Assembly (NCBI GenBank): GCA_008501735.1
Contig: QQUF01000036.1
Location: 1-61,891 of the forward strand
Reading direction: 5' to 3'
Length of the DNA: 61,891 bases
Source: Calditrichota bacterium
GTDB lineage: Bacteria > CLD3
In this document: positions 30,459 to 51,627 of the stretch, one piece after another
How the letters are laid out: each line of letters starts with the position of its first letter
Numbering within the stretch: the first letter of the stretch is position 1
Program-made: the position numbers and the translations under genes
Notes under the pieces: generated by a model
Database searches by the model: none
The model's input: the letters and a program-made list of their open reading frames with translations, nothing else
What the model was told of the DNA's origin: nothing

Positions 30459-30464
30459 CTCTAA

Positions 30465-32157: not shown

Positions 32158-32169
32158 AAAGCTAATTTT

Positions 32170-33531: not shown

Positions 33532-33532
33532 A

Positions 33533-34108: not shown

Positions 34109-35365
34109 ATGGCAATTACTATCGACAACAATGCCTTAACACCTTCACAAGGTGCTGTAATCAAAGTAATCGGTGTTGGCGGTGCAGGTGGAAACGCTGT
34201 CAATACAATGATTGACTCAGGTCTTTCTGGAGTAGAATTTATTGCTGCAAACACAGACATTCAAGCTCTTAACGTGAATAAGGCTGATGTCCATGTTCAA
34301 ATCGGAAAAAAAGAAACTGAAGGTCTTGGAGCTGGAGCTGACCCAAGTGTTGGAGAAACCTCAGTCCTTGAAGATTCTGATTTGATAAAGGAAGCAATCG
34401 GAAAACCTCATATGGTTTTTGTTACAGCTGGAATGGGAGGCGGAACTGGAACTGGAGCTGCTCCTGTTGTCGCGAAAATGGCAATGGAAACAAATGCACT
34501 TACAGTAGGAATTGTAACTAAGCCTTTCAAATTTGAAGGCAATAGAAGAATGAAATCTGCTGAAGAAGGTATTGCTAAATTACGAAATAATGTTGATACT
34601 TTAATTGTTATTCCTAATCAGAAATTGATGGAAATTAACAAAGGTTCACTTACTCTTCAAAATGCTTTTACTATGGCTGATAATGTTCTACTTCAAGCGA
34701 CTAAAGGTATTTCTGACATCATCAAAGGAACTGGTTTAATTAATGTGGATTTTGCAGATGTGAAATCAATTATGACAACTTCTGGCGATGCGATAATGGG
34801 AATTGGTGAAGCTTCAGGAGAAGGAAGAGCAACTCAAGCTGCTGATAGTGCAATTTCTAGTCCTCTACTTGAAGAGTATTCTTTGCAAGGTGCAAAAGGT
34901 ATTCTTATTAACATTACGGCAAGTTCAAATATTTTAATGTCAGAAATTGATGAAGCTACAGAATATATTCGTGCAAAAACTCAAACTGACGATGCAAATG
35001 TAATTTTTGGTGTAGTTCTTGATGAATCTTTAGAAGAAAAAATTCAAATCACTGTTATTGCTACTGGTTTTAATAAAGAAGAAGAAATTGTTGACGAAAT
35101 TCCAAGTGATGTAAATACTCAACATTTTGACGACGTTCCTGTTCAGCAACCTAAAAGAGAACGAATTGTGCACAAATTACACGGCGATTCAGTAAATCCT
35201 AATCACGATTCAAGAATGGGTGGGATTTCCGCGAAATATGAAGAAAAGGGCGAAAACTCTTTCAATCCAGAAACTTATAGAACTGGAATTAATGCCGTTC
35301 CTAATTTAGGAACTGACAAAGGAAATCTGAGTCAACCGACTTTCTTAAGAAGAAAATACAATTAA
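34109..35365 (+). CDS. ftsZ: Cell division GTPase FtsZ
   Basis: Tubulin-like GTPase forming the Z-ring, 418 residues. GVGGAGGNAVNTMI near the N-terminus, the tubulin signature MGGGTGTGAAPVVA, the NTDIQAL segment and the T7-loop region VDFADVKSIM are all present. The GTPase core ends about residue 320, followed by a charged linker. The usual short FtsA-binding C-terminal peptide (DIPxFLRxR-like) may be represented by PTFLRRKYN at the very end. It is followed by a terminator shared with the convergent signalling operon. Confidence 0.98.
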   Translation: MAITIDNNALTPSQGAVIKVIGVGGAGGNAVNTMIDSGLSGVEFIAANTDIQALNVNKADVHVQIGKKETEGLGAGADPSVGETSVLEDSDLIKEAIGKPHMVFVTAGMGGGTGTGAAPVVAKMAMETNALTVGIVTKPFKFEGNRRMKSAEEGIAKLRNNVDTLIVIPNQKLMEINKGSLTLQNAFTMADNVLLQATKGISDIIKGTGLINVDFADVKSIMTTSGDAIMGIGEASGEGRATQAADSAISSPLLEEYSLQGAKGILINITASSNILMSEIDEATEYIRAKTQTDDANVIFGVVLDESLEEKIQITVIATGFNKEEEIVDEIPSDVNTQHFDDVPVQQPKRERIVHKLHGDSVNPNHDSRMGGISAKYEEKGENSFNPETYRTGINAVPNLGTDKGNLSQPTFLRRKYN

Positions 35366-35371
35366 AACTTT

Positions 35372-35399
35372 AAAGGCTCGGATAATTCGAGCCTTTTTT
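35372..35399 (+). terminator. Terminator after ftsZ (possibly bidirectional)
   Basis: Arms AAAGGCTCG / CGAGCCTTT with a 7-base loop and a six-T run on the plus strand. It sits between convergent ftsZ and the CheR-like gene; the minus-strand side has a weaker T-rich tail. Confidence 0.85.
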
Positions 35400-36219
35400 A
35401 TTTCTTTTGAAAAATGTTTGTCCCTTTTTTGAGTTCAGACATTTTTAATTCTTTTACAAAATTCTTGTAATCACTTCCTGGTTCTAAACACAGAATTCCA
35501 TTTGGATTTAAACTTTCCTGAAATACTGAAATAGCTCTTTCTCTCAAGTCTTCATTAAAATTCTGTAAAATATTCAGGCAAACTATCAAATCAGTTTCGC
35601 TAAAAACCCCGTCGGTTGTTAAGTTATGGTCAGCAAAAACAATATTTCTTAATGAATGTTTGATTACTGCCGAATTGTTCAAAACAGTATAGTATTTAGA
35701 GAATTTTTCTTTGCCACCTGAAAGCCTATAAAAGTCTTCAAATTCATTGATTATTTCTAAAGAATAAATTCCTTCACGTGCCTTAGAAAGAACTAAGTCA
35801 TTAAAGTCCGTTGCATAAATTTGGCTTCTTTTAAGTAAATCTTCTTCTGCTAACAAAATCGAAAAGGTATAAACATTCTCGCCTGTTGAACAACCAACAA
35901 ACCAAATTTTGAAAAAAGTCTTCTCTTTTAAAATTGGATTCACAATTTTTTTGAAATTTTGATAAAAAATTGGATTTGGGAAATTATTGCTAGGGTGGCT
36001 TGTTAGGTCAGCTAAGACAATTTCAAAGAAATCTTTGTCGTAAAGAATTTTGTGCTGCATTTCACTAAAAGATTTGAAGTTAGAATTTTTGAGCCTTGCT
36101 TGAAATTTATCTTGAAGCAGTTCAGGCAAAAATTCCCGTAGATCGTAACCATATTTATGGAAAATTGCATCAATTAGGAGTTTGATTTCAATATCAATAT
36201 TTTTTATCGTTTTGTGCAT
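35398..36219 (-). CDS. Divergent CheR-like methyltransferase
   Basis: 273 residues with the CheR layout: a small N-terminal helical domain (about 1-70), then an AdoMet fold with VGCSTGENVYTFSILL equivalent to the CheR motif CSTGEEPYSLAM, ATDFNDLVLSKAREGIY (the acid after strand 2 plus the typical CheR helix) and DLIVCLNILQNFN in place of DLIxCRNVLIYF. The CheR FFRD segment near the domain junction is changed to NFPNP, losing the Arg normally involved in binding. It may bind AdoMet without methylating a chemoreceptor; no MCP or CheB gene is nearby. Last gene of the five-gene signalling operon, 34 bases after the hybrid kinase gene. Confidence 0.75.
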   Translation of the reverse strand: MHKTIKNIDIEIKLLIDAIFHKYGYDLREFLPELLQDKFQARLKNSNFKSFSEMQHKILYDKDFFEIVLADLTSHPSNNFPNPIFYQNFKKIVNPILKEKTFFKIWFVGCSTGENVYTFSILLAEEDLLKRSQIYATDFNDLVLSKAREGIYSLEIINEFEDFYRLSGGKEKFSKYYTVLNNSAVIKHSLRNIVFADHNLTTDGVFSETDLIVCLNILQNFNEDLRERAISVFQESLNPNGILCLEPGSDYKNFVKELKMSELKKGTNIFQKK

Positions 36220-36253: not shown

Positions 36254-39200
36254 TTATTGGTAAAGCCACACTCTTAATTGGGCTAGTAATTTGTCTTCAT
36301 CTAAAGGTTTGGATAAGTAATCGTTTGCTCCAGCATTTAGGCACTTTTTTCTGTCTCCTTGCATAGCTTTTGCTGTTAGAGCAATTATGGGTAAATTTTT
36401 GAATTTTTCAATATTGCGAATTTCGTGCATCGCTTCAAAACCGTTCATATTTGGCATCATTATGTCCATCAAAATTAAATCTATCTCATCAGGATTCAGA
36501 CTAAGTGCTTTTAGACATTCTTTACCATCGTGAGCAGTTGTAACTCTCAAATCGTGTTCTTGTAAAATACTAGAAGTCGCAAGAATGTTTCTCATATCAT
36601 CGTCAACTAAAAGAATGTGCTTACCTTTAATGACATTAGTTTCTTCATTCAATTTGTTTACAATCTTTCTCTTTGCCTCTGAAAGGTTCTCTTCCTTTCT
36701 GTGCAGGAGTAAAGAAGAAATATTAAGTAATTGTTCAGAAGTTATTGTTACTTTAACAGGAAAATTATTCTCGTAAATTCTGATTTCTTCTTCATCTAAG
36801 TCTGCTTGCGAATTAAAAATTATTGGAACTTCTAATCGTTCAACTGATTGTTTCAGAAATCCCAAGAAGTCGATTCCTGACATATCCTCCAAATGATTGT
36901 CCAAAATTATACAATCAAAATTTTCGACATTTATAATTTTTACAAAATCTACTGAATTGGCAACTGTTGCAATCCTCAAATCGTCGCCTTGAACTAATTC
37001 TGCGATTCGATTTTGTGACTCTTTACTTTTTGAAGCGATGAGTAAGCTCTTATTTTCTTTATTAAAGAACTCAAGAACTTTGTCAAAAATCTCGTTTATT
37101 CCTACTGAATCAACAGGTTTTGTTATACAACCTATTGCACCGCTTTTAATTGCTTCAAAGTTTGAAATTTTGTTTGAAAGCATAAAAACAGGAATGTGCC
37201 TTGTTTTGTTGTTTTCCTTGAGCCTAAACAAAACGCTTTTCCCGTTAATTTCAGGTAAGTCTTGAAGCAAAATTATTGCACTCGGTTTGTAGAAATCAGC
37301 CATTTGTAGGCAAGTATTTCCATTGTCCGCAAGAAGAACTTTCATTCCTTTGTTGTGTGCTTTATCCGAAAGAATCTTTGTTGTAACTGGGTCTGTTTCG
37401 ATTATTAAAACAACTTTATCTTTTTCTGAAATTACTTTTCTATCATCAATTATCGCTTCTATTGTTTTTGGTGGGGCAATATTTATTTTTGAGATTTTCT
37501 CACCAATTGAATTTGGGGCATTCTTGGTTTTAATCTCAATTTTGTTTTCAGGTAACGATTCATTGTCTTCAACTTTCAAAATTTCAGGGATATAAAGCGT
37601 AAAAGTGCTTCCACTTCCAATTTCACTTACCAAATTAATTTCGCCTTGAAGCAATTTGGCAAATTCTTTGGAAATTGAAAGACCTAAACCAGTGCCTCCG
37701 TATTTTCTGCTTGTGCTTCCATCTTCTTGTTGGAATGCGTCAAAGATCATTTTTTGTTTTTCTTTAGCAATACCTTTTCCAGTATCAATTACGGAAAATC
37801 CAATTGTTTCTTCAAGATTCAAAATCCTTGATTCAAAGTTCTTATAAGGTTTGTGAATTTTGAAGGTAATCTGACCGCCAACAGGAGTGAATTTCATTGC
37901 GTTGGAAATGAAATTTTTGATAATTTGTTCAACTCTTTGTCTGTCGGTGTATAATTCTTGGTTTAGTTCTTCGTCAATTTCAATTGCAAAATTTATACCT
38001 TTGTCTTCGACTACGTGTTTGAAGTTCGTTTTGATATAATCTGAAAATTCAACTAATTTTACGTTTTCGACGTGAATTTCTATTTTGCCAGCTTCGACTT
38101 TTGAAAGGTCTAATACTTCATTAATTAAGTTTAATAAATCATTTCCAGCAGAGTAAATCGTTTTTGCAAATTCCATTTGTTTGATTGTTAAGTTGCCTTT
38201 TTTGTTATTAGAAAGCAATTTTGATAGAATCAGAATGCTGTTCAATGGAGTTCGCAATTCGTGAGACATATTTGCAAGAAACTCTGATTTATATTTACTA
38301 CTCATTTCAAGAGCTTTTGCTTTTTCCTCAAGTTCTGCTTGAGCAAATTTAAGTTCTTGATTTTTAATTTTTATGTTCTCTTTTTGTTTCTCTAAAGCAC
38401 GAGTTTTCTCTTCTAAAGCAAGATTGATCTCACGCAATTCCTCTTGGTTTGATTGAAGCCTTTCTTCTGATTCTTTCAAAATTCTTGCTTGTTCTTCTAA
38501 TTCGTCATTCGTAACTCTAAGGACTTCTTGTTGGGATTGCAGTTTGTGTGCTTGTTGCTGAGTTTTTCCTAAAAGTTCTGCCATTTGGTCGCGAGATTTT
38601 GCAGAGTAGAACGAAATCCCGATGTTTTCAACAACTAAGTCTAAAAATTGTTTTTTAACCTCAGTTATTTCTTCAAAAGAAGCTAATTCAATGATTCCAA
38701 GTAGCTCATCTTCGTGTAAAAATGGAACAACAATAATATTTAGTGGTGAACCTTCACCTATTCCAGTATTAATTTTTAAAAAATTGTATGGAACATTTGA
38801 GATAGAAAGAGTTTTTTTGTCGGCAGCAGATTGTCCAACCAAACCTTCACCAAACTGAAAGATTGGAGGGTTTTCTTTATCAAAATTAAATGAAAAACTG
38901 TTTATCATTTTTAAATGTTCTTCATCACGAATGTAAATTGCTCCAATTGGACATCCTAAATATCTTGTCAAAAAATCTAACACATTCTTTGCAAGTGTAG
39001 CAATTTCAGGATTTCCACGAAGTTTATTATTTAGTTCAGCTTGTCCTTCGTTGAGCCAATTCTGTTTTAATAATTTTTTTGATGATGTAGTTAGATTTTT
39101 TTGAAGTTGAACCAAAGCAGAGCCTAATGAATCTTTTGAACTTCGGATTTCAATTTGTTTATCAAAATTACCGCTTCCAATTAAAGTTGCCATTTCCGCT

Positions 39201-39985
39201 AAATTTCTGTTAGACTCAACTAATGTTGAAAGAACGTTTGCTAAGTCAGCAATCTCGTCATTTGACTTAACTTTAAATTCAACATCGTTATCACCTTCTG
39301 CAAATTTCTTTGCTTGTCTTTGCATTTCAGTAAGAGGATTTGTTATACTTCGCGAAAGGAATGCACTAACAAGCATTGCAAGTAATAAAATCCCAATTCC
39401 ATAAATTGAAAGCATCATAAATCTTGATTTTAAAGCATCATTTAGAGTTACAATTGAGTAGTCTAACTGCAAAACTCCAACAACAGATTTATCTTCTCCT
39501 TTAATAGGTACAAAAGCTGAAATCCATTCACCGTAATCGTCTTGGTATCTTGGAGTAATTACAGGAATATTTTCTTGAAAAGCTTTTTGGAGTAGGGGAG
39601 TCATTTTATATTTATGACCAATGAAGGGTTTATTGTTTGTCATTACAGTAAATTTTGCAAAATCAGGACTACCAGAAGGAGTTAAAATGTAGATTTCAGT
39701 TGAAAGATTATTTTCAGCTTTAACCTTCCTTAAGGTGCTTCTAAGTTGTAAAAATTCTTGTGAAGCTGGATTCTGGGAACTTTCTACAATTTTAATTTTA
39801 CTTGGTTGAATCGCTAATGTTGTTGTTTTTGCAATTCCAAGAAGTTCTTTTCCAAGACTTGACTCCAATTCTGCAGAAGTGAGTTTATAGTCAATTACAA
39901 GCACTATAATTATGCTTAAGAACAACAGCGAAAAAATTATGTAACTAATTTTTTGAGAAAGACTTGAAAACCAACTTCGATTCAT
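36254..39985 (-). CDS. Membrane hybrid histidine kinase with HAMP, GAF and three receiver domains
   Basis: 1,243 residues. TM1 about 13-31, an extracytoplasmic single-Cache-like sensor about 32-188, TM2 about 189-210, HAMP about 211-263, a second HAMP-like linker, GAF about 320-460, a long coiled coil 465-565, HisKA with the phospho-acceptor in MSHELRTPLNS (His575), HATPase with DTGKGI and GTGLGLSI (to about 803). Then three receiver domains follow: REC1 (about 856-970) appears to lack the phospho-Asp at the usual position (ILLQDLPEING), REC2 (about 985-1095) has ILDNHLEDMSG, and REC3 (about 1120-1240) is canonical with LMDIMMPNMNG (Asp1174) and a final Lys in SKP. The REC3 closely resembles the receiver of the next upstream gene, implying duplication. 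Fourth gene of the 35.4-45.3 kb operon. Confidence 0.93.
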   Translation of the reverse strand: MNRSWFSSLSQKISYIIFSLLFLSIIIVLVIDYKLTSAELESSLGKELLGIAKTTTLAIQPSKIKIVESSQNPASQEFLQLRSTLRKVKAENNLSTEIYILTPSGSPDFAKFTVMTNNKPFIGHKYKMTPLLQKAFQENIPVITPRYQDDYGEWISAFVPIKGEDKSVVGVLQLDYSIVTLNDALKSRFMMLSIYGIGILLLAMLVSAFLSRSITNPLTEMQRQAKKFAEGDNDVEFKVKSNDEIADLANVLSTLVESNRNLAEMATLIGSGNFDKQIEIRSSKDSLGSALVQLQKNLTTSSKKLLKQNWLNEGQAELNNKLRGNPEIATLAKNVLDFLTRYLGCPIGAIYIRDEEHLKMINSFSFNFDKENPPIFQFGEGLVGQSAADKKTLSISNVPYNFLKINTGIGEGSPLNIIVVPFLHEDELLGIIELASFEEITEVKKQFLDLVVENIGISFYSAKSRDQMAELLGKTQQQAHKLQSQQEVLRVTNDELEEQARILKESEERLQSNQEELREINLALEEKTRALEKQKENIKIKNQELKFAQAELEEKAKALEMSSKYKSEFLANMSHELRTPLNSILILSKLLSNNKKGNLTIKQMEFAKTIYSAGNDLLNLINEVLDLSKVEAGKIEIHVENVKLVEFSDYIKTNFKHVVEDKGINFAIEIDEELNQELYTDRQRVEQIIKNFISNAMKFTPVGGQITFKIHKPYKNFESRILNLEETIGFSVIDTGKGIAKEKQKMIFDAFQQEDGSTSRKYGGTGLGLSISKEFAKLLQGEINLVSEIGSGSTFTLYIPEILKVEDNESLPENKIEIKTKNAPNSIGEKISKINIAPPKTIEAIIDDRKVISEKDKVVLIIETDPVTTKILSDKAHNKGMKVLLADNGNTCLQMADFYKPSAIILLQDLPEINGKSVLFRLKENNKTRHIPVFMLSNKISNFEAIKSGAIGCITKPVDSVGINEIFDKVLEFFNKENKSLLIASKSKESQNRIAELVQGDDLRIATVANSVDFVKIINVENFDCIILDNHLEDMSGIDFLGFLKQSVERLEVPIIFNSQADLDEEEIRIYENNFPVKVTITSEQLLNISSLLLHRKEENLSEAKRKIVNKLNEETNVIKGKHILLVDDDMRNILATSSILQEHDLRVTTAHDGKECLKALSLNPDEIDLILMDIMMPNMNGFEAMHEIRNIEKFKNLPIIALTAKAMQGDRKKCLNAGANDYLSKPLDEDKLLAQLRVWLYQ

Positions 39986-40062: not shown

Positions 40063-41166
40063 CTATTTAATCCATTTTTTGATTAACGCAATTAACTCAT
40101 CTGGGTCAATCGGTTTGCTTAAATAATCGTTTGCACCCGAATCAATACACTTTTGTCTGTCTTCTGCCATTGATTTTGCTGTTAACGCAATAATAGGTAA
40201 TTTCTGAAATCGTTGCATTTTTCTAATTTCAGTCATTGCTTCATATCCGTCCATTTCAGGCATCATTATGTCCATCAGAATCATATCGAAGTTTTCTTCT
40301 TCTTTGAGTTTTTCTAAGCACTCAATACCACTTTTGGCAATTTCGGTTTCAATTTCTTCCTCTTCTAAAATGCTAACAGTTGAAAAAAGATTTAGAGGAT
40401 CATCATCAACAAGTAGAATTTTTTTGCCCTCCAAAGATATTTCAATTCCTTCTAAATTCGGGAGAAGAGTTTCAACTTGAACTTTTGGTTCAGATTGAGT
40501 TTCTACTATTTTAGGCTTTTCAATTTCTATTTTGTCAACCTTAGGAACTTCAACTTTTGTCTCAATAATTTCTAAAGTTTCTTCAATTTTGGGTTCTTCA
40601 ACTTTAGGTTCATTAATTGGTTCAATCGAAAGCTTTTCAATTTTAGGTTCTTCAACTTTTATCTCAGGTTTAGGTTCTTCAATTGGTTCAAGAATAATCT
40701 TTTCAGGTTTAGGCTCTTCAACTTTAATTTCAATTTTAGGCTCTTCAACTTTTAATTCAATTGTTGAGTCTTTTTCAATTTCAGTTTCTTCCACTGTTGG
40801 TGGAGGAGTTTCAATTTTGATTTCTTTCGTCATTTCTGCACTCAAATCAACAATTTTTGATTTGGACTCTTCCTTTATAACAGGAGTTTCTACTGCATTT
40901 TCAACTTTTGGAGGCTCATTAGCTTTTGGTTGAGTTTTAACAGGCTCGATTTTAGGAAAATTAGATTTTTCCTCAAGTTGTGAAACTGTTTTTTTAACTT
41001 CTACAGTCTTTTTCTCATCGGGTGTAGTTGTAGTTGGCGTTTTTTTTGTTTTTTGGTTTTTAGGTAGTTTAATTTCATTTTTTTGCGATGCTTTTTTCTT
41101 CTGGGAAAGAACTAAAATTATTATTACAGCACAAACTACGCCTAAGAAAATTGTTGAATTATCCAT
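40063..41166 (-). CDS. Membrane-anchored response regulator with E/K/P-rich stalk
   Basis: 367 residues of unusual design: an N-terminal hydrophobic helix (about 5-20) with Lys-rich flank; a ~210-residue low-complexity linker dominated by Glu, Lys, Pro, Ile and Val, with repeated EEPKIE-type units (about 125-215); then a canonical receiver domain (about 245-367) with LLVDDDPLN acids, phospho-Asp299 in LMDIMMPEMDG, LTAKSM and YLSKP. There is no output domain after the receiver. The receiver tail (LPIIALTAKSMAEDRQKC) is nearly the same as in REC3 of the adjacent kinase. It probably receives phosphate at the inner face of the membrane. Third gene of the five-gene operon. Confidence 0.88.
   Translation of the reverse strand: MDNSTIFLGVVCAVIIILVLSQKKKASQKNEIKLPKNQKTKKTPTTTTPDEKKTVEVKKTVSQLEEKSNFPKIEPVKTQPKANEPPKVENAVETPVIKEESKSKIVDLSAEMTKEIKIETPPPTVEETEIEKDSTIELKVEEPKIEIKVEEPKPEKIILEPIEEPKPEIKVEEPKIEKLSIEPINEPKVEEPKIEETLEIIETKVEVPKVDKIEIEKPKIVETQSEPKVQVETLLPNLEGIEISLEGKKILLVDDDPLNLFSTVSILEEEEIETEIAKSGIECLEKLKEEENFDMILMDIMMPEMDGYEAMTEIRKMQRFQKLPIIALTAKSMAEDRQKCIDSGANDYLSKPIDPDELIALIKKWIK
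40570..40770 (-). repeat. Low-complexity E/K/P repeat tract inside the stalk gene
   Basis: On the plus strand, GGTTCTTCAA/GGCTCTTCAA followed by CTTTT recurs at irregular short spacing. On the coding strand this encodes repeated EEPKIE/EEPKPE units. Both register and length are likely to vary between related strains. Confidence 0.7.
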
Positions 41167-41194: not shown

Positions 41195-43288
41195 TTAATA
41201 GCCATCGTTCTTTCCGAGAACGTAACCTTTTTCATAACCTTTAGTATTTCCTTCTTCAAAGCCGTCTTTGAAGCCTTTTTCATAACCAATTTTTTTACCG
41301 TTTAAAATTCCTTTGGTTTTACCGTCTGCCAAACCTTCTTTGAATCCAATTTTCTCACCTTCCTTGAATCCACGTTCATTTGCTTCTTCAAAGGAAACAG
41401 ACTCGATATTTTGGATTAAGTCTGTTAGTTCAGATTTAATCATTTCATTGGCTTTTTTGACAAAAGGATAAAGTTTGTTGTGGTCAAAATTATTTGGAAC
41501 GATTTCAAAAACTTTGACTACGTTTTCAAAGTTTTCATTTAAAAGTAGTTGTTCAATTAGTTCTTCAAAATATGAGTCTAATTTTTCAAAATAATTTTCG
41601 ATGAGCCAAGTTTCAGATTCCAATACTTGAATAATTGGTTCATAAATACCCATTTGAGATTTTTCTTTCCAATCATTTAAATATGTTTCAAGCAATTTTT
41701 CCTTGAGTTGAACAGGTTTTTCTTTATTTGTTAATTCTAATAAGATTGAATTGAACTCTTCAATTTTGTTCGATTTTGAAAAGTATGGAAAAATATTTAG
41801 TATGTACTCCAATACTTCATCTTTAAAATCAGTTAAAATCCAATTTTGGGTATTTATTGCTTTTTGAAAGGAATCAAAATTTTGGTTTGCTAATTCTTTC
41901 TCCCATTTAATAAAGTAGTAATTTAAAAGTCTTTTTTGCGATTCAGGATTGTTTGGTTCAATCGCTAAAAGTTTTTCTAAAACTCCAAAATTTGATGGCT
42001 CTTTTTGGGAATATTCTAATAAAAAGTTAAGAAAATCCTTTTTCACTTTTTCAGGTTTCAAGGAATAAGCTTTTTCATAAAAATTCAAAATTCGTTCATC
42101 GCTACCAAATTTTCCTTTTTGGTAAACTATTGCGAGTAGTTGAAATGCTTCAAAATTATCAGGATTTTGTTGTACGACTTTAAGGAAGTTTTTCTTTGCT
42201 TCTTGGTAGTCTTCATTTTCAAATTGAATTTTTCCCAAATCCAAATACATCGAAATTAATTTTTGGAATTTTACAAGTTCACTTTTTAAAGCATCTTTTT
42301 CAAACTCAGATTCCGCCCATTTGTTAAATAATGGAATTCTTAAATTGAATTCATTTTTAGACTGTTTCTTGATGATATTTAATTTGGTCAAGTTGTCTAA
42401 GATTGTTTGAGCTTTAATCTCCATAGCTTTTGGAAGAATTTTATCAAGTTCTTCTTTTAAGGTTTTGAAATCTGTTTTTCCACCACCTAAAATCTGATCT
42501 GCTATAATAAAAAGGAAAGTTTTCTCAGAAGCATTCAACTCGTTGTGAAACCAAAATAATTCGTCTTTGAGACCCTTGATTACAGCAATCAAATTTTTAT
42601 CAACTTCATTTTTGGAAATTGAATTAATTCCCTTAATCTTTGAGTGATTAAAAAGGTACTCACCTATTTTTTCAGAAATAAAAGGATGTCCTTCGGTTAA
42701 TGAAAAAATGCGATTTATAGCATCTGGAGTGAATTTTGGGTTCGAAAAAGTTTTTAAAAATTTGCTTACATCTTCAAAATTTAAGTATTGCAAATGAACG
42801 AATTCAGAATTCTTTCTAAAAGAAGGATTGAGCGAGTTTAAAGAATCTTCGGAAAAAGAAGAGCTTAAAATAAATTTTATTTTTGGGTTTTTACTCGCCA
42901 ATTCTGTCAACTCGTTAAAGAGTTTTTCTTCGTTCTGTGGAATGAAAAAATTATCTAAAAACAAAGTTAATTTTTCGTCTAATCCACTAAAAGAATACTC
43001 TTTGTGAGTTAATTTTATAACATCAGAAATTTCTTTAAGTAATTCTGCTGTTCTGAAATCATTTTTAAAATCAAAATCGAAGTAAAAAGGTTTGATTCCT
43101 TTTTGTGGATTTTCGACTAAGTTTTTTAGAAGAAAAGTTTTACCGCATTTATTTTCACCAAATAAAACTAGAGTATTGTTTTCAGTCTCTTTAGTAAGAA
43201 AATTTGAGATTTTATTTTTTACCTCAATCTGACTTTTAAACAATTCAATTTCATTTGTTTGAGTTTCGAGAGTTTCAAATTCTTGCAT
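41195..43288 (-). CDS. P-loop NTPase / TPR protein with C-terminal Gly-X3 array (paralogue A)
   Basis: 697 residues: STAND/ORC-like NTPase with Walker A GENKCGKT (44-51), Walker B-like LFLDNF (about 107-112) and sensor-like LSSSF. A winged-helix-like segment follows (about 245-335: LTKLNIIKKQSKNEFNLRI), then TPR units (FENEDYQEAKKNFLKVVQQN, NFEAFQLLAIVYQKGKFG) and a helical region. The last ~60 residues are 15 uninterrupted Gly-X-X-X tetrads, with aromatic or charged fill (IGYEKGFKDGFEEGNTKGYE). The Gly periodicity of four resembles the deca-GX3 motif of Yae1/Lto1 and the N-terminal repeats of FliH. Second gene of the operon and clear paralogue of the gene upstream. No signal peptide; its function is not recognised. 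Confidence 0.82.
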   Translation of the reverse strand: MQEFETLETQTNEIELFKSQIEVKNKISNFLTKETENNTLVLFGENKCGKTFLLKNLVENPQKGIKPFYFDFDFKNDFRTAELLKEISDVIKLTHKEYSFSGLDEKLTLFLDNFFIPQNEEKLFNELTELASKNPKIKFILSSSFSEDSLNSLNPSFRKNSEFVHLQYLNFEDVSKFLKTFSNPKFTPDAINRIFSLTEGHPFISEKIGEYLFNHSKIKGINSISKNEVDKNLIAVIKGLKDELFWFHNELNASEKTFLFIIADQILGGGKTDFKTLKEELDKILPKAMEIKAQTILDNLTKLNIIKKQSKNEFNLRIPLFNKWAESEFEKDALKSELVKFQKLISMYLDLGKIQFENEDYQEAKKNFLKVVQQNPDNFEAFQLLAIVYQKGKFGSDERILNFYEKAYSLKPEKVKKDFLNFLLEYSQKEPSNFGVLEKLLAIEPNNPESQKRLLNYYFIKWEKELANQNFDSFQKAINTQNWILTDFKDEVLEYILNIFPYFSKSNKIEEFNSILLELTNKEKPVQLKEKLLETYLNDWKEKSQMGIYEPIIQVLESETWLIENYFEKLDSYFEELIEQLLLNENFENVVKVFEIVPNNFDHNKLYPFVKKANEMIKSELTDLIQNIESVSFEEANERGFKEGEKIGFKEGLADGKTKGILNGKKIGYEKGFKDGFEEGNTKGYEKGYVLGKNDGY

Positions 43289-43310
43289 AATTTTATCTTC
43301 GCTTTAAAAT

Positions 43311-45332
43311 TTAATGTCTTCTACTTTCGCTACGTCCTTGTTGGAAACCTTTTTTGTATCCGATGTCCATTCCTTTTGCCTTGCCTTTTTGCAAACCTTC
43401 GTTAAAGCCAGTTTGGTAGCCTTCTTTAACACCAATTTCGTAGCCTTCGCGTTCACCCAAATCCAAGCCTTTTGTAAGACCTTTTTGCTTCCCACTTTCA
43501 AAGCCTTTTTTATAACCTTTTTCTAATCCTTTGGCTTTACGTTTTTCAATTAAGTCTTTGATTTTATTATTTGAATTTTCGTTTGCAGCTTTTACAAATG
43601 GGTAAAAATTGTATGGGCTTAGAAATTCAGGAACAACGTCATACATTTTTATTATTAAATCGAACTTTTCAGATTTTAAAGAAGCGTCAAAGTAATCATT
43701 GAGCAGGTCATTAATTTCATCTTGGAAGTTTTCTTTAATCCAATCAGTTTCATTGACTGTTTTTGTAAAATTATCAAAGTGGAATGAGGAAAACTCTGTT
43801 TGCCAATTTGAAGAGTAGGAGTTGTAAAGTTGTTTTTGTGTTTGTAAGTCATTTGAATCTGTTGACAATATTTTTTCAAGAATTGGAATTAGTGAGTTAG
43901 AGTCAGATTTTTCATTCGAATTTATTTTTGATAAAAAATTATTTAACTCAGGCTTGAAGTTTTTTAAAATCCAATTCGATTCATCTAACTTTTTAGAAAG
44001 AGTTGTTGAAATTTCTTCAAAAGATTTTGGTTCTAAATTTTTAAATATCATTTCCAAAACTGATTTTTGGATAGTTTTGTCATTTGGGAAGTCTTGTGCA
44101 ATTTTTTCAAGTTTTTGGAATCTGACTTTGTCAGATAAAGAATTTATGAATTCTAGATAAATTTCTTTTGCTTGATGAGGGTTGCTTTTGTAAAGACTTT
44201 CAAAATAGTAAAGTTTGATTTCAGGTAAAGTGTTAGGATAAAACTTTAAAGCATTTACTAAATTAATTTTAGCTTCAAAATTTCCTGATTGCCTGTCCAA
44301 AACTTTTTTGAAATTTTCAACTGAATCTATGTAGTCTTCATTTTCAAATTGGATTAAACCAAGTTCCAAATGAATTTTTGTGAGTTTGAATTCTTTTTCA
44401 AAGTCTTTCTGAATATCCACACGAGTAATTTCTGAAAGTAGGAATTGGTTTAAAAATGGAATTGTAAAATTCAAATAATTTTCATTTTCTTCAACTAAAC
44501 CTAATGTTTGTAGTTCTGAAATTGCTTCTAAAACTTGGTTAGAGGTTAAGTTACCATTTAAAGCAGTAACTTCATCGCAAACTTTTTCGACAAGTTTGGT
44601 TTTGAGTTCAGTTGAAACAAGGAAATAAAGAACAGCTTTTTTTGTTGTATCAAATCTTTTCCAAATCCAATTCAAGGCACTTGAGTCATTTTCCAAAAAC
44701 TTGAGCAATTCTTTAGTTTGAATTTCTTTTGCAGAAGTTTTGGTAAAGTATTCAGCTAAGAGTTTTGTATAATAAATATTTCCATTAGTAAGTGAGTAAA
44801 GGAAGTTAGAATCAAGTTTTGGATAATTATCTTTGGTAAACTCAATTGTTTCATTTTCGGTAAAAAAGCCGAGATTCAAAACTTCATAATTTTCTAAATC
44901 TTCTAAAATAAAATTACCGAAACTGTTAAAAGGATTTAGGCTAATTACTAATTTCAAATTAGATTTATTCTCTATTTTTACAAAGTCTAAGAACTCAAAG
45001 AATTCATTCAAATTTTGGTTCTTAAGAGTCAAGCAGTCTAAAAATAGAAATAGGTCTTTTTTAAGTTCCTGTAATAACTTTGGAAGGGAAGTCTCACTTT
45101 TATGAAGAAAAGTTTTGTTGTCTAAAAGATTAACAATAATTGGAGAGTTTAACTTTGAATCTTTAAAGTTTGCAAAAGAGGTATTACTTAAAGCCAAAGA
45201 TGAGTTTCTTAAAAATGAAGTTTTACCAGAGAACTTATCACCTAAAACGAATAATATTTTCTTGGAATCATTAGCTATAAAATTCTCAAAAACTTTTTTG
45301 GCGTTTTGTCGAATTTGGAATTTATTGTTCAT
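43311..45332 (-). CDS. P-loop NTPase / TPR protein with C-terminal Gly-X3 array (paralogue B)
   Basis: 673 residues with the same plan as the next gene: P-loop GDKFSGKT (31-38), LFLFLDCLTL Walker B-like strand, LVISLNPF sensor-like strand, winged-helix-like segment ending LGLVEENENYLNFTI, TPR units starting FENEDYIDSVENFKKVLDRQ, and a longer helical region. The C-terminus has 17 consecutive Gly-X-X-X tetrads, for example KGYKKGFESGKQKGLTKGLD. The shared FENEDY TPR entry and common order show duplication. First gene of the five-gene operon; its upstream 169 bases hold the probable promoter. A frame-shadow in the Gly-X3 region gives no separate protein. Confidence 0.82.
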   Translation of the reverse strand: MNNKFQIRQNAKKVFENFIANDSKKILFVLGDKFSGKTSFLRNSSLALSNTSFANFKDSKLNSPIIVNLLDNKTFLHKSETSLPKLLQELKKDLFLFLDCLTLKNQNLNEFFEFLDFVKIENKSNLKLVISLNPFNSFGNFILEDLENYEVLNLGFFTENETIEFTKDNYPKLDSNFLYSLTNGNIYYTKLLAEYFTKTSAKEIQTKELLKFLENDSSALNWIWKRFDTTKKAVLYFLVSTELKTKLVEKVCDEVTALNGNLTSNQVLEAISELQTLGLVEENENYLNFTIPFLNQFLLSEITRVDIQKDFEKEFKLTKIHLELGLIQFENEDYIDSVENFKKVLDRQSGNFEAKINLVNALKFYPNTLPEIKLYYFESLYKSNPHQAKEIYLEFINSLSDKVRFQKLEKIAQDFPNDKTIQKSVLEMIFKNLEPKSFEEISTTLSKKLDESNWILKNFKPELNNFLSKINSNEKSDSNSLIPILEKILSTDSNDLQTQKQLYNSYSSNWQTEFSSFHFDNFTKTVNETDWIKENFQDEINDLLNDYFDASLKSEKFDLIIKMYDVVPEFLSPYNFYPFVKAANENSNNKIKDLIEKRKAKGLEKGYKKGFESGKQKGLTKGLDLGEREGYEIGVKEGYQTGFNEGLQKGKAKGMDIGYKKGFQQGRSESRRH

Positions 45333-45501: not shown

Positions 45502-48204
45502 TTAACGTAAGAGTACCATTTTTTTTACTTCAATATTTTTATTTGACTCTAATTTGTAAAAATAGATTCCATTTGAAACTAAATTATCATTTTTATCTGT
45601 ACCGTTCCAAGTTATTGAGTTGAAATTATATTCTAAATTATATTCTTTAATTTTTTGACCCAAAGAATTAAAAATTGTTAGTTTTCCAATTTCACCTTTT
45701 TCTAAACTAAATTCAATTTTTGTGGAAGGATTAAATGGATTTGGGTAGTTTTGATTTAAACTAAAGGTTGAGACCTTTGGTTTGAATTTCTCATCTTGGG
45801 CAGAAACTAAGTTATCCATTTTGTAAGCATAAACTGCTCCTGCTTTCAAACCACCAAAATCATGAGAAGGAGAACCCACAACAAGTAGTTCATCAGAAAT
45901 AGAAACTGAAGAACCGAATAAGTCATTCTTCTGCCCATCAAGAGCAATTAATTTTTCTTGAAAGTTCCAATTTGCTCCATTGAGTTTATAAATGTAAACA
46001 GAACCAGTTTGAAAATCGTTTTCATCATCTTTAGGTGAACCAATGACAAGAATATTATTATGGACAGCAATCGAAGTACCAAATTCGTCTAATGCTTGAG
46101 AATCGAAAGCAAACAATTTTTCTTGAAGGTTCCAATTTGATCCGTCAAAATGATATATATAAACAGCTCCACAATCTAAACCTTGACAAAACTCATCGTC
46201 TTTATTTGCACTAACAAAAGCAAAATTACTTGAAATTGCTACTGAAGCACCATAATTATCCGAATTATTAATATTGATTGGAGTTAAATCTTTTTGTAAT
46301 TCCCAAGAATTTATATTTTTCTTATAAATAGCTGCTCCACTAATATTATTTGAAACTCCAAAAATTGCATTTTTGCTATCAATGTCAATTTTAGTTTTAT
46401 TTGATGAAGTAATATTCCAAATAAAATCATCTTCATTAAAAGAATTCCATTGTCCATTTGTCCAATTATAAGAAACTATCTTTGAACTAATTCCAAAGTC
46501 AGTGTTACATAGTGCAATTATATCAGAATTATTTATAAATGAAGAATTAAGACGATTGAAAATTGGATAATTTACACCTGGAATTTCAAATAAAAATTGA
46601 TAACTACCATTTACTAGCTCATATAAATTATAACCATTTAACAAAAAATTTTCAGATAAATAGCCACCAAAAGAATTTATAGTTTTAGAAATATTATTGT
46701 TTTCAATCTGATAAATTTCTTTTCCTGTTGAGAATTTGCTTCCGAATGCATAAACATTTTCTCCAAGTCTTTGGTTTTCTTCATTTCCATTAATTTTGTG
46801 GAAGTCATTAGTTTTAGATTCACCTAAGAGAGTAATATGTAAGTCTAATCTATCTTCAATTTCAAATTTTACAAAATAACTTAAATCTCCAATAACACTT
46901 GGTATTACAAAAATCGATATTGTGTCTGTTTGAAAAAATTCAATACTTTGAGGATAGTTAGAAGTTAAATCGGTACTAGAAAAATCAATATCAAGAATTT
47001 CCAAAGAGTCAAGAAATAAATTTGTAATTGGAATGTTAATTTGGCTTTGAGTAGAAAAGCTAAAATCTAAAGAATCAAAAACATCAGTTTGAATTTGAAA
47101 ACTTTGTAATTCGTAAAAATCGAATAAATGTACTGCTCCACATTTTGAATAATTAAAATCAGTTTTTGGTGCAGAAATAATGATTTTATCATCAGATAAT
47201 GCAACATCTTGAGCAAAATTGAAACCTTCAATAACATTCTTTCCAATAATTTTTCGAATTTGTTTCCAACCAGTTGGGGTTTTGTTTAAACAATAAACTG
47301 AACCAAGTTCACCCTCAGCAGATAAATCGTCTCTGAATCCAATTAAAATTTTATCATCATCAATTTTTAATGAAGAAGCATAAGAATTTTCATCAAATTT
47401 CTTTTTGATTTCTAAAATGCTTTGTTTCTTCCAAGCATTATTATTTCTTGCATAAAATGATATGATTTTTTCTGAATAAACAACTAATTCTCCATCGTCA
47501 AAATCTATAAGTTTCCCAAATTGCAAATTTTCATTTTCAGAATTCATTTCGATCTTAGTTTCAGGAATCCAAAAAGGTCCAATTTGATAAAATGGGTAAA
47601 CTCCATTTTCAGAGCTTACAATAATAAAGTCGCCTGCAATTGTTACACTTTGACCAAAGTATCTATTTGAATAACTCAAATTATAGTCGTAAGCCCAAAG
47701 TTGACCTTGAGAATTCCAAAAGTTTCCATTCCTTTTGTAAACGAAAGCTAATCCTTTATTTGTACCAAATGAATAATCTAAATAAGCTCCAATGACAAGC
47801 AATGAATCACTAATATCAATTGTTTTTCCGAAATAAGTACTTTCTAATTGAGTTAATTTTTTATTCAGACTCCAAACACTTCCAATCTTTCTAAATATAT
47901 AAACAGTTTTTTGGAGATAAAATCCAAGGGCTGCGTAATCATCAAATATTTTTACTGTAACGGGTTTGTTATTCCCTTGTAAATCGTTTGGTTCTAATTT
48001 TTGTACAAAAACATAATTTCCAGACAAGTTTTTCTCATAAATTTCAGCAAAACCTTCATTAGTTCCTACAATAAGTAGATTCTCAAATGAATCTATTGAA
48101 ATACCAAAATTTTCATTCATTTCTGAACCGTAAATAATAGTTTCTTCAGCAATTAAGTTTTCAATTGCAAAAAGTAAAATTAAAATTGAAATAAATCGTC
48201 GCAT
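45502..48204 (-). CDS. T9SS-exported FG-GAP repeat protein
   Basis: 900 residues from the ATG at 48204. The frame extends to a TTG at 48219, but the ATG has an ideal GGAGG 8 bases upstream. Signal peptide 1-18. Repeats of the type FGTSIAVHNNILVIGSPKDD-x-n-GSVYIYKLNG are FG-GAP (beta-propeller/integrin-like) units at both ends of the protein. The C-terminal ~85 residues are a T9SS type A sorting domain (QNYPNPFNPSTKI, then GIYFYKLES and terminal KKMVLLR). Likely anchored or released at the cell surface; ligand unknown. Confidence 0.92.
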   Translation of the reverse strand: MRRFISILILLFAIENLIAEETIIYGSEMNENFGISIDSFENLLIVGTNEGFAEIYEKNLSGNYVFVQKLEPNDLQGNNKPVTVKIFDDYAALGFYLQKTVYIFRKIGSVWSLNKKLTQLESTYFGKTIDISDSLLVIGAYLDYSFGTNKGLAFVYKRNGNFWNSQGQLWAYDYNLSYSNRYFGQSVTIAGDFIIVSSENGVYPFYQIGPFWIPETKIEMNSENENLQFGKLIDFDDGELVVYSEKIISFYARNNNAWKKQSILEIKKKFDENSYASSLKIDDDKILIGFRDDLSAEGELGSVYCLNKTPTGWKQIRKIIGKNVIEGFNFAQDVALSDDKIIISAPKTDFNYSKCGAVHLFDFYELQSFQIQTDVFDSLDFSFSTQSQINIPITNLFLDSLEILDIDFSSTDLTSNYPQSIEFFQTDTISIFVIPSVIGDLSYFVKFEIEDRLDLHITLLGESKTNDFHKINGNEENQRLGENVYAFGSKFSTGKEIYQIENNNISKTINSFGGYLSENFLLNGYNLYELVNGSYQFLFEIPGVNYPIFNRLNSSFINNSDIIALCNTDFGISSKIVSYNWTNGQWNSFNEDDFIWNITSSNKTKIDIDSKNAIFGVSNNISGAAIYKKNINSWELQKDLTPININNSDNYGASVAISSNFAFVSANKDDEFCQGLDCGAVYIYHFDGSNWNLQEKLFAFDSQALDEFGTSIAVHNNILVIGSPKDDENDFQTGSVYIYKLNGANWNFQEKLIALDGQKNDLFGSSVSISDELLVVGSPSHDFGGLKAGAVYAYKMDNLVSAQDEKFKPKVSTFSLNQNYPNPFNPSTKIEFSLEKGEIGKLTIFNSLGQKIKEYNLEYNFNSITWNGTDKNDNLVSNGIYFYKLESNKNIEVKKMVLLR

Positions 48205-48212
48205 AACTGTTA

Positions 48213-48217
48213 CCTCC
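48213..48217 (-). promoter_or_regulatory. Strong Shine-Dalgarno that fixes the start of the FG-GAP gene
   Basis: GGAGG on the minus strand, 8 bases before the ATG at 48204. It overlaps the upstream TTG that would otherwise open the frame, so the ATG is the true start. Confidence 0.75.
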
Positions 48218-48318
48218 AATGAATTTTATTTTAAAAATCCAACAATGATGCCAATTTATTTAAGTCAAACTATTTCAATGCTTTAAAAATTGTCACCTAG
48301 AAGGGGAAAAGTGTATAC

Positions 48319-48350
48319 AAAAAAGGGGAAAGTCATAAAACCTTCCCCTT
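48319..48350 (-). terminator. Terminator after the metalloprotease gene
   Basis: Arms AAGGGGAA / TTCCCCTT (48323-48350), with a T6 run on the minus strand, 12 bases after the metalloprotease stop codon. Confidence 0.85.
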
Positions 48351-48361
48351 AAAATCTAAAC

Positions 48362-51300
48362 TTACTTTAAAAGTGTGAGCTTTTGAGTCTTTGTAAATTT
48401 GGGAGTAACAAATTTCAGAAAATAAACCCCAGAAGAAAGCTCATTTCCATTTTCATTTGTTCCGTTCCAAACAAAATCGTGATTCCCACTTGAAAGATTA
48501 CCTTCAAAAAGTGTTTTCACAAGTTCACCTTTAATATTAAAAATATTTAATGAAACTTTATGAAATTCACTTTTAGTTGGAATTTCGACTTGAATTGTAG
48601 TCGAAGGGTTAAATGGATTTGGGAAACTTGGATTTAAAACATATTCGTAAGTTAAAATTTCTTCTTCAAGCTCTAACAAACTTCCTGAAACAACTCTGTC
48701 TTTGTGGTCAGTAATTCTTCCTGAAAACTCTACATCTCTTAAGTAGTAAAAATAAGTTTTCCCAAATTCTGCTTTCTCATCAAACCAAGTGTAAACGGTG
48801 TTGTTACTGACATTGCCTTCACTTTTTAGATTTGGGTTTGAAATGTAAGAATCGACTTTTACAAAATCTTTAGAGTTGTTTTCACTTCTAAAAATTTCGA
48901 AACCTAAATTCTCAAACTCACTTTGAGTTTCCCAAACTAATTCAATTTTATCAGAATGATTAATTGCTTTAAAATGTGAAAGAATAATTGAAAGTGGTGT
49001 GTCATTTGCATCTTGGACAAAAAATGGAGAACAGCTTGGGGCAGTTCCACAAACTTCGTAATTACCATTCCCTAAATCAGTAATCACGTTATCAGGTAAA
49101 AATGAATTTTGATGAGCAATTCTTAAGTCAGTTGCAGGAGTTCCTGTGAATCCCGTTAACCAATCTGAACTTACAACAAAGCAAACAGTTACATTATTTT
49201 GCCCGTTACAATTCAAATCATAACTTGCCACAAAAGGAATACCAGATTCTGTTGAATTTACATTGGCTAAAGTAAAAGCAGTCGAACCGCCTTGAGTTGC
49301 AATTGAACCCAAATTTCCTCCTGCTCCATTAAAGTTTGTCCCTCCAGAATTATTTGTTGTAGGAGTTGCAACGACTGGAGAATCATTTGTATTAAATGTC
49401 GGGATTTCAGCGTTTGTTCTTTGACTTCCTTCTAAAATTGTTCCTGTTAAATAATTGATTTCGGTTCCACTTCCATTAAAAGCAAAAACATCGAAAAAGT
49501 AGTTAGTATTTGATGTCAATGTATTTTGAACGAAGAAAACGTCTGAACTTATAGAAACTATTTCTCCGTCTCCAATTGAGTTTCCGACTATGTAAGTTGT
49601 TCCGTCAGTAGGAATTCCCGTTGGTGAAGAATTTTCTTTTCTCAAAACTAAATAGCCTAAAATCGTTCCACTTCCAGCCGTAAAAGTTCCAACAAAAGAA
49701 TCTGTGTTTACACCTGCAAATTGTAAATTAGTAGCTTGGCTAACGGGTTCGGTTGCGAGAGTTTTTTCGCTTCCTTCAAGAGGTGAGGTTGTCAAAAAGT
49801 TTGAAGTTGCACCATTTCCATTAAAGGAAAATATGTCGTAGAAATATTCAGCATTTGAACTCAAACCAGTGTCAGTGAACGAATTTGAATTACCTAAGGC
49901 AACGACGGTTCCGTCTCCAATTGTGTTTCCAACAGAGTAAATTGTTCCGTCAATAGGAATTCCCGTTGGTGAAGAACTTTGTTTTCTTAAAACTAAATAA
50001 TTGTCAGGAGTTCCAGCAGCATTTGTAAAAGAGGCAGAAAGTGAAGTCGCTTCTCTTGTTATAAAAGTTAAACTTGTCGGCTGATTTGTTGGCTCATTAC
50101 TTCCTGTTGTTGTTCCATTTCCTTCGAGAGGAGAATCTTCTAAGTAATTAGTCGAAGTTCCGTTTCCATTGAAAGCAAAAATGTCGTAAAAGTAATTTGT
50201 GTTGAGAGTTAAACCTGTGTCAGAAAATGAGTTTGAGTTTCCAACTGCAACAACAGTCGCATCTCCGATTGTGTTTCCAACAGTGTAGGTTGTTGCATCA
50301 ACAGGAAATTCGTTTGCTGAAGAACCTTGTTTTCTTAGAACAATGTAACCGTCAGGAGAATCAGACGAAGCTGTGAAAGTTGCAGAAATTGAGTTTGCAG
50401 TTTGAGAATTTATGCTAAAATTTGTTGGTTGGTTTGTTGGTTGGAAATCAACAGTTGTCCAACCCATATCTTTAAAGAAACCAAGTGTGATGTTTCCTGG
50501 ACTGTGAATTGCTTCTGCTGTTCCGATTGCGTGAGTCATCAAAGAGTTTGCATTTCCTGCTGGATAAGTTGCGTCATTCCAATGTGAGTAACTTGAACCA
50601 CTGTCAAAAGAACCTGTCGGAACGTAAAGTTTTGGATTTGTTCCTCCGTGAGCAGAGACAGCGTTTGCTCCGTTTACAAACAAGTTGTCGCTAATTAATT
50701 CATTTCCGAGTGCAACAGAAGGGTTTGTGAAAGTTGTAATTGCAGTTCCAGCACCATTCTCGACAAACAAATCATAAATTGAAAATCTTAAAGGAGAGCC
50801 AAGACCAAGTTGTCCAGTTGTTGTTCCATTGTCTCTTGTTCCTGTTCCTGCAAAACCTAAACCGTGACAAAGTTCGTGAAGGACTACAGAAACAAAGTCA
50901 AATTGTCCTGAAGGAGTATTTCCATCAGTCCCAAAATACCAATTTGCAAAATTACTGTTAAAATTTGCATTAATGTCGTGATTTCCTGAACCTGTGAAAA
51001 TATCAGTTCCTGCAAGTTTGTTGGCTAAAGGAGCTGTGTAAAATGTGTTTGCAACAGGAGCATTTGTAAAATCTCTTACCAAATAATTTCCACCTGCCGA
51101 ACCTAAAACATTTGCACCAAGAACTTTAAATTCTGCTTCAACTTCAATTGTAACGGCAGAAGTGAGTTGAGAAGCCCAAATGTCAACCGCGTATTGAAAA
51201 GCGGTTTGTGCTTCTGCTGTAAACCCTGTGTAATTTACAGTGATTGTAGCAGTTTGAATTCCGTTTTGTCTTTTCTCCAAAAAGTCGCTTGGTGGTGGGA

Positions 51301-51454
51301 CAAAAGTAAACTTGTCTTCATACTCAGCGATTAAACCGCCACAAAGTTCAGTTGAACAAGATTTGTGAGTTAAGTGTTCTTGAGCAAAAGTGTTTGTGAG
51401 TAAAATTGATGAGAAAAATAGCGAAGAGGTGAGTAGTGGTAAATTTTTGGGCAT
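48362..51454 (-). CDS. T9SS-exported HExxH metalloprotease with three tandem fibronectin-like modules
   Basis: 1,030 residues with signal peptide (1-24). The catalytic domain (about 40-340) has VVLHELCHGLGF, a zincin HExxH motif followed by GxGF, and a later NSLMTHA segment reminiscent of the metzincin Met-turn; the third zinc ligand is not obvious. Three tandem ~115-residue modules (about 340-690) share the order LSASFT / YLVLRKQ / YSVGNTIGDGTVVALGNSN / YFYDIFSFNGNG. A further domain precedes a T9SS type A sorting domain (LNPSFPNPFNPSTTIQVEIP, GVYFLKF, terminal QKLTLLK). It is probably a cell-surface or secreted protease. Its own terminator follows. Confidence 0.9.
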   Translation of the reverse strand: MPKNLPLLTSSLFFSSILLTNTFAQEHLTHKSCSTELCGGLIAEYEDKFTFVPPPSDFLEKRQNGIQTATITVNYTGFTAEAQTAFQYAVDIWASQLTSAVTIEVEAEFKVLGANVLGSAGGNYLVRDFTNAPVANTFYTAPLANKLAGTDIFTGSGNHDINANFNSNFANWYFGTDGNTPSGQFDFVSVVLHELCHGLGFAGTGTRDNGTTTGQLGLGSPLRFSIYDLFVENGAGTAITTFTNPSVALGNELISDNLFVNGANAVSAHGGTNPKLYVPTGSFDSGSSYSHWNDATYPAGNANSLMTHAIGTAEAIHSPGNITLGFFKDMGWTTVDFQPTNQPTNFSINSQTANSISATFTASSDSPDGYIVLRKQGSSANEFPVDATTYTVGNTIGDATVVAVGNSNSFSDTGLTLNTNYFYDIFAFNGNGTSTNYLEDSPLEGNGTTTGSNEPTNQPTSLTFITREATSLSASFTNAAGTPDNYLVLRKQSSSPTGIPIDGTIYSVGNTIGDGTVVALGNSNSFTDTGLSSNAEYFYDIFSFNGNGATSNFLTTSPLEGSEKTLATEPVSQATNLQFAGVNTDSFVGTFTAGSGTILGYLVLRKENSSPTGIPTDGTTYIVGNSIGDGEIVSISSDVFFVQNTLTSNTNYFFDVFAFNGSGTEINYLTGTILEGSQRTNAEIPTFNTNDSPVVATPTTNNSGGTNFNGAGGNLGSIATQGGSTAFTLANVNSTESGIPFVASYDLNCNGQNNVTVCFVVSSDWLTGFTGTPATDLRIAHQNSFLPDNVITDLGNGNYEVCGTAPSCSPFFVQDANDTPLSIILSHFKAINHSDKIELVWETQSEFENLGFEIFRSENNSKDFVKVDSYISNPNLKSEGNVSNNTVYTWFDEKAEFGKTYFYYLRDVEFSGRITDHKDRVVSGSLLELEEEILTYEYVLNPSFPNPFNPSTTIQVEIPTKSEFHKVSLNIFNIKGELVKTLFEGNLSSGNHDFVWNGTNENGNELSSGVYFLKFVTPKFTKTQKLTLLK
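49420..50448 (-). repeat. Three tandem ~345-base modules within the metalloprotease gene
   Basis: Each copy encodes one ~115-residue beta-sandwich-like module with the conserved YxVGNxIGDxxxV and YFYDIFAFNGNG segments. Similarity is also clear at DNA level, so the copies arose by tandem duplication and may be prone to misassembly or copy-number change. Confidence 0.7.
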
Positions 51455-51627
51455 TTTCTAATCCTAACTAAAAATTAAATTGTATAAATTGTAACTAAAG
51501 AATTTTAAACTTAATCGAAGATTGGAAAAATATCCAATACGAAATAAAAATTCAACATCCTTGTCTTTTCGTTCAAATTAATTTACTTTTTAAATATTAA
51601 TTTTAAGGAAATTAAAGGAATCCTAAA

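Follow-up and report, generated by a model that had tools for sequence, protein, structure and literature searches.

Two tandem degenerate STAND-type NTPases of a Calditrichota bacterium carry FliH-type glycine ladders that may pair them

Introduction

Are two neighbouring proteins that both end in long, strictly regular glycine ladders joined through those ladders? This question is raised by a 61,891-nucleotide stretch of DNA from a Calditrichota bacterium (contig QQUF01000036.1 of assembly GCA_008501735.1; referred to throughout as the window), in which two adjacent minus-strand genes, A and B, each encode a nucleoside triphosphatase (NTPase) with TPR repeats and a C-terminal run of Gly-X-X-X (GX3) units. 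A first-pass annotation, made from the sequence alone, had proposed that helical tails of this kind assemble A and B into a heteromer. Structural precedent for long soluble GX3 ladders is scant; in a 2009 survey of FliH, no long ladder could be found in any solved structure (PMC2674601). A tandem pair in which the glycines are perfectly kept and the X residues have diverged offers a clean natural test of whether glycines alone specify pairing.

Results

A glycine ladder conserved between two diverged proteins

Both open reading frames (ORFs) are intact, at the coordinates given in Table 1 and in the first-pass annotation, and the encoded proteins (673-697 aa) are 27% identical over their full length (E = 7e-38), which bears out their description as paralogues. 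The counts of 15 (A) and 17 (B) consecutive GX3 units also hold, and the longest run of glycines spaced by four in 20,000 shuffles of each protein was 4. A's tail glycines are kept in B in 15 of 15 cases, against 4 of 16 for its body glycines (Fisher p 1.6e-5; p 0.028 when the comparison starts from the glycines of B), and at the non-glycine tail positions the two proteins agree at 8 of 51. Opposite Gly602 and Gly606 of B, A carries Ser632 and Ala636, and both tails can therefore be read as a 17-step ladder of small residues. The ladders have identical length and endpoint; a conserved tryptophan (W561 in A) lies 80 residues from the first shared glycine in both proteins, and the alignment contains no insertion or deletion between the W561 region and the last shared glycine. 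The C-termini of A and B read NDGY and ESRRH. Between the tails, conservation lies in the pattern and its length and not in the intervening residues.

Within the two tails, the mean pairwise identity of the units is 51% and 53% at the DNA level and 14-15% for the non-glycine residues, and the ladder glycines are encoded by a mixture of GGT, GGA and GGC. A DNA-level tandem repeat was rejected, since the units have only about half of their bases in common and the glycine codons vary. Across the 4.14 Mb genome, an eight-unit GGN-N9 pattern matched in genes A and B only. Because the glycines are perfectly kept while the X residues have diverged and the codons are mixed, purifying selection on the pattern is indicated, and we conclude from these sequences that the ladder itself is under selection. 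This also makes it scarcely credible that the tails are products of low-complexity drift and lack any specific fold or partner, even though the structural models described below are of low confidence and low-complexity ladders recur on unrelated proteins.

STAND-type bodies that have lost canonical motifs

Pfam assigns AAA_14 (E = 3.7e-10) and TPR_17 to A; the sole above-cut-off match of B is its tail. A profile of both bodies, run against 386 genomes, found mostly TPR proteins, together with NTPase proteins such as L178 and L179. An hhalign comparison of the N-terminal 400 residues of A and B with the NTPase-winged-helix portion of six body-profile relatives aligned residues 15-336 of A with these STAND-type NTPases (probability 98.3, E 2e-14). 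This comparison, along with a Walker A motif (GxxxxGK[ST]) in each protein, upholds the earlier assignment of P-loop NTPase-TPR bodies to both. The "winged helix" of residues 220-340 is a candidate assignment, made from the alignment to the relatives and from general knowledge of STAND architecture rather than from a confident model.

The six relatives have in common FxGR, GxxxxGKTS, a Walker B motif ending in DE, and GHP. In A and B, Walker A is present (GENKCGKT and GDKFSGKT, respectively), Walker B keeps its aspartate and has lost the next acidic residue (LFLDN in A and LFLDC in B, against DE in the relatives), and the GR of the N-terminal FxGR, invariant in the six, is gone (F-KSQIEVK in A, F-QIRQNAK in B). 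The position of the GxP motif is occupied by GHP in A (residues 200-202) and by GNI in B. Judged by these alignments, A and B are homologous to STAND-type NTPases but lack motifs expected of an ordinary working member. Because the Walker A lysine and the Walker B aspartate are kept, and the following acid and the GR motif are lost, both probably bind nucleotide and turn it over slowly or not at all.

A separate cyclase-STAND-TPR fusion of 1258 aa, with class III cyclase-like, AAA_16 and TPR segments, is encoded elsewhere in the window (20187-23963, minus strand).

Predicted structure of the tails

AlphaFold2 (AF2), run on full-length A in an alignment with B alone, gave a model with a mean predicted local distance difference test (pLDDT) score of 49 in which the tail is helical, in three pieces; the A tail alone was modelled not as a single long helix but as a two-helix hairpin (helices 2-28 and 32-61) at a pLDDT of 61. 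These low-confidence predictions agree with the helical tails proposed earlier and lend tail helicity weak support. Foldseek related the full-length model to TPR and helical-repeat proteins only, with poor scores, and returned no significant match to the A tail model. Against PDB sequences, the tail aligned best with a low-complexity NxxG stretch (E 0.051), a match that was disregarded.

The same models admit an arrangement in which A and B are not joined and each ladder folds within its own molecule, as a helical hairpin or a three-helix cap, and docks on the TPR solenoid or on a third partner such as the kinase or the linker of the response regulator encoded nearby. The hairpin of the lone tail and the three helices of the full-length model would both suit it, but the two models, both of low confidence, break the tail at different positions, and a continuous, strictly regular ladder with neither proline nor a Gly-Gly turn is not what a hairpin needs. 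We consider this arrangement unlikely.

Other owners of GX3 ladders

The Pfam Yae1_N model had matches in 17 of 290 genomes, a profile of the A and B tails in 51 of 386 and, in another phylum at a stricter cut-off, in 37 of 291. Ladder owners among those examined include FliH, Transposase_31/Rpn-like nucleases, secreted proteins and others, with runs of 13-20 units in the nucleases and secreted proteins and of 8-12 in FliH. The runs of A and B are thus long but not a record, contrary to the exceptional length first attributed to them, and the comparison set given at that time (Yae1/Lto1 and FliH) was too narrow. Nuclease ladders consist of repeated units with an aromatic share of ~0 at x1, the residue after glycine, whereas in FliH ladders x1 is aromatic in 50-71% of units and unit diversity is 0.9-1.0. 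With a unit diversity of 0.86 and 50% aromatic x1 in A, and of 0.94 and 44% in B, the two ladders group by composition with the aromatic, non-repetitive FliH type.

FliH forms homodimers (PMC9114704), and the match in composition makes it conceivable that the tails of A and B likewise form homodimers or higher homo-oligomers (A-A, B-B), the pair being simply a duplication whose clients have diverged. The ladder is symmetric, and nothing in its X residues favours A-B over A-A; yet a heteromer would fit the tandem co-expression, and the identical length of the ladders after so long a divergence, at least equally well, and we regard homo-oligomers as possible, if rather improbable.

The first-pass annotation had suggested scanning for such tails on P-loop NTPases. 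One further P-loop NTPase, and no more, was seen among the tails examined: a NACHT protein (L137:1137-2870, minus strand), whose hydrophobic GLVxG run of 14 resembles a transmembrane glycine zipper. No other NTPase-TPR protein with a soluble ladder was found in the sample examined, in which not every tail-profile match was opened. Ladder tails are quite common among bacteria; of the other owners examined, none has the build of A and B.

Further owners were seen in passing. A 538-aa protein (L205:1438-3051) unexpectedly carries a FliH-type ladder, an N-terminal aromatic GX3 run of 16 units, before a region that by eye is ThiF/E1-like. Three apparently secreted proteins of genome G263 (L078, L125 and L160) have 20-unit ladders of non-identical units, with SH3_3 in L125.

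Family membership

Pfam found no FliH domain (PF02108) in A or B, and the NCBIfam FliH model matched the tail only, at best with 39.5 bits against a cut-off of 180. FlhA (PF00771), which stands for the flagellar/T3 export apparatus, is absent from this genome (G000) and from eight phylum-mates and was found in four control genomes. Membership of FliH was rejected on the missing FliH domain and the missing FlhA. Against Pfam Yae1_N (PF09811, cut-off 27.5), B scores 35.2 bits and A 22.0; because the model also matches FliH, nuclease and secreted proteins, the match shows the repeat rather than kinship, and membership of Yae1/Lto1 was rejected, the model responding to any GX3 ladder. An Rpn-type tail was rejected on its differing composition and unit diversity and on the lack of a nuclease domain, Pfam finding no PF04754 in A or B.

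Ladders of bacterial FliH, nuclease and secreted proteins (for example L123, L127 and L133) score above the cut-off of the Yae1_N model, so a Yae1-like annotation of bacterial proteins from PF09811 is unreliable.

Gene neighbourhood and search for relatives

A and B stand at the head of a five-gene minus-strand run (B, A, response regulator, hybrid histidine kinase, CheR; gaps of 22, 28, 77 and 34 bases) that is convergent with ftsZ (Table 1). The five genes are probably transcribed as one unit, a putative operon.

Anti-phage and conflict systems frequently contain STAND NTPases with TPR sensors. A and B could be of this kind, with tails that drive oligomerisation on sensing, and ladder-bearing Rpn proteins do act against phage (PMC10327210). 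PADLOC, however, gave no significant match (best E 0.0026, short and partial), the neighbours are two-component and cell-division genes rather than defence genes, and no effector domain was seen. A defence system was rejected on the PADLOC result and the gene context, and we hold it to be very unlikely.

No full-length relative of A or B was found with two peptide patterns in GTDB r220 contigs and IMG/VR, by tblastn in plasmids and 60 genomes, or with the profile in 386 genomes. For this barely sampled lineage, the result is weak evidence that relatives are absent, because even the adjoining FtsA, searched for in the same way, matched nothing in GTDB r220. In G001, a genome of the same family, no homologue of A was found and the ftsZ neighbourhood differs.

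Several features around the run were recorded in their own right. The REC domain of the response regulator and the last of the three in the neighbouring hybrid kinase share 54% identity, which suggests duplication. The window holds a murC-murB-ftsQ-ftsA-ftsZ cluster (29082-35365, plus strand) with an extra small gene between ftsA and ftsZ (33533-34108), whose positional counterpart in G001 (L116) is methyltransferase-like by sequence. Several large proteins (45502-53967 and 59093-61528; FG-GAP, fn3 and SBBP repeats) end in Por_Secre_tail/FlgD_ig sorting domains, and a type IX-like secretion system is likely for that reason.

Table 1. Coordinates of A, B and associated features in the window
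Feature	Position	Strand	Description	Basis
Gene A	41195..43288	-	697 aa: AAA_14/STAND-type NTPase, winged-helix-like region, TPR, helical repeats, GX3 tail	ORF, Pfam
Gene B	43311..45332	-	673 aa: degenerate STAND-type NTPase, winged-helix-like region, TPR/helical region, GX3 tail	ORF, homology to A, body profile
A tail	41201..41371	-	aa 640-696, 15 glycines at every fourth residue	Ser632 and Ala636 precede in same register; AF2 helical, low confidence
B tail	43335..43529	-	aa 602-666, 17 glycines at every fourth residue	Sequence; Pfam Yae1_N
A Walker A	43136..43159	-	GENKCGKT, aa 44-51	Sequence
B Walker A	45219..45242	-	GDKFSGKT, aa 31-38	Sequence
A TPR and adjoining helical region	41849..42268	-	aa 341-480	Pfam TPR matches; PDB TPR matches
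Response regulator	40063..41166	-	N-terminal transmembrane stretch, long P/K/E-rich linker, REC	Pfam Response_reg 6.7e-32; transmembrane stretch and linker seen in sequence
Hybrid histidine kinase	36254..39985	-	Weak Cache match, HAMP, GAF, HisKA, HATPase_c, three REC	Pfam
CheR-type methyltransferase	35398..36219	-	Last in run	Pfam CheR 2.2e-25
Terminator-like hairpin	35372..35396		Between ftsZ and the convergent run	Pattern scan; site number not above shuffles

Discussion

The tails are best explained as helical zippers, which would either join A to B or dock a partner. Pairing of A with B is our tentative answer and the leading reading, because the ladders are equal in length and the pair is co-encoded. 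It builds on the observed sequences, ladder conservation, body homology, motif losses and gene order and on helices predicted at low confidence, from which we infer the pairing, the nucleotide behaviour and the link to the two-component proteins. By analogy with Lto1, RpnS and SMN, GX3 ladders may serve to join helices. A STAND-type NTPase with a P-loop domain, a winged helix, TPR repeats and a C-terminal ladder would have been duplicated to give A and B. Each ladder would form an alpha-helix in which the every-fourth glycines make a groove, with aromatic or aliphatic residues directly after many of them, and two such helices would pack backbone to backbone in the manner of FliH or the YG-type zipper of SMN. 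Most likely A would pack with B along all 17 steps of the equally long ladders, and the resulting heteromer would carry two NTPase heads on a single stalk. Heads that bind nucleotide and turn it over slowly would suit a scaffold or switch rather than a motor, and the TPR surfaces may bind signalling partners, plausibly the adjacent membrane-anchored response regulator and hybrid kinase.

Several observations weigh against pairing of A with B or against the proposed partners. The non-glycine tail residues show no significant A-B register signal (4534 of 20000 tetrad shuffles). AF2 confidence is low, with only two sequences to draw on, and the hairpin of the lone A tail could pack on itself. Orthologues that would show A and B travelling together were not found, in searches of weak reach for this lineage. 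The G001 kinase with the best REC match (54% over REC), on a 6.8 kb contig, has no A or B beside it, and the functional link between A/B and the kinase is for this reason unproven. The fullest form of the proposal, a nucleotide-gated scaffold made of a two-component-associated degenerate STAND pair that heteromerises via 17-step soluble glycine zippers, with the FliH-type ladder directly on the NTPase, is doubtful as a whole.

FliH-type ladders exist without flagella and on a switch-type NTPase, and "FliH" or Yae1_N annotations based on the tail are therefore unreliable. Among known systems, the bodies of A and B are closest in layout to the STAND NTPase-winged helix-TPR proteins L178 (NTPase-TPR, 1447 aa) and L179 (NTPase-TPR-FGE-sulfatase), which follow the same order of NTPase, winged-helix-like region and TPR. 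Unlike A and B, these retain FxGR, RRIGKTS, DE and GHP and end in other modules (FGE-sulfatase in L179), and none of the compared STAND NTPase-TPR relatives bears a glycine ladder.

For the ladder, FliH (PF02108) offers the nearest likeness, with uninterrupted GX3 runs, aromatics after glycine, non-repetitive units and a link to an ATPase system (Trost and Moore 2009, PMC2674601; m = 0-12 in that survey). In FliH, however, the ladder precedes the FliH domain and belongs to a separate regulator of the ATPase, whereas in A and B it is the C-terminus of the NTPase itself. Yae1/Lto1 (PF09811) are likewise two distinct proteins, each with a GX3 run, whose heteromer is mediated by the run; the deca-GX3 of Lto1 is needed for Yae1-Lto1 binding, and changes to its glycines weaken Yae1 binding (Paul et al. 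2015, PMC4523923). These are small eukaryotic adaptors of cytosolic iron-sulfur cluster assembly (CIA) with ~10 units, no NTPase body and a C-terminal tryptophan in Lto1, in contrast to bacterial NTPases with other C-termini. The tetrad repeats of Rpn/Transposase_31 proteins also form a GX3-type ladder near the C-terminus; in RpnS they sit in the dimer helix, where the repeat number sets how tightly RpnS and RpnL bind (PMC10327210). Unlike those of A and B, they are nuclease-borne and consist mostly of near-identical units in strain-variable number, with x1 aliphatic or charged. The YG zipper of SMN, a eukaryotic GxxxGxxxG motif without an NTPase, is far shorter than the tails of A and B but resembles them as a soluble glycine zipper, a helix dimer in which glycines pack face to face and tyrosines interdigitate (PMC8287954).

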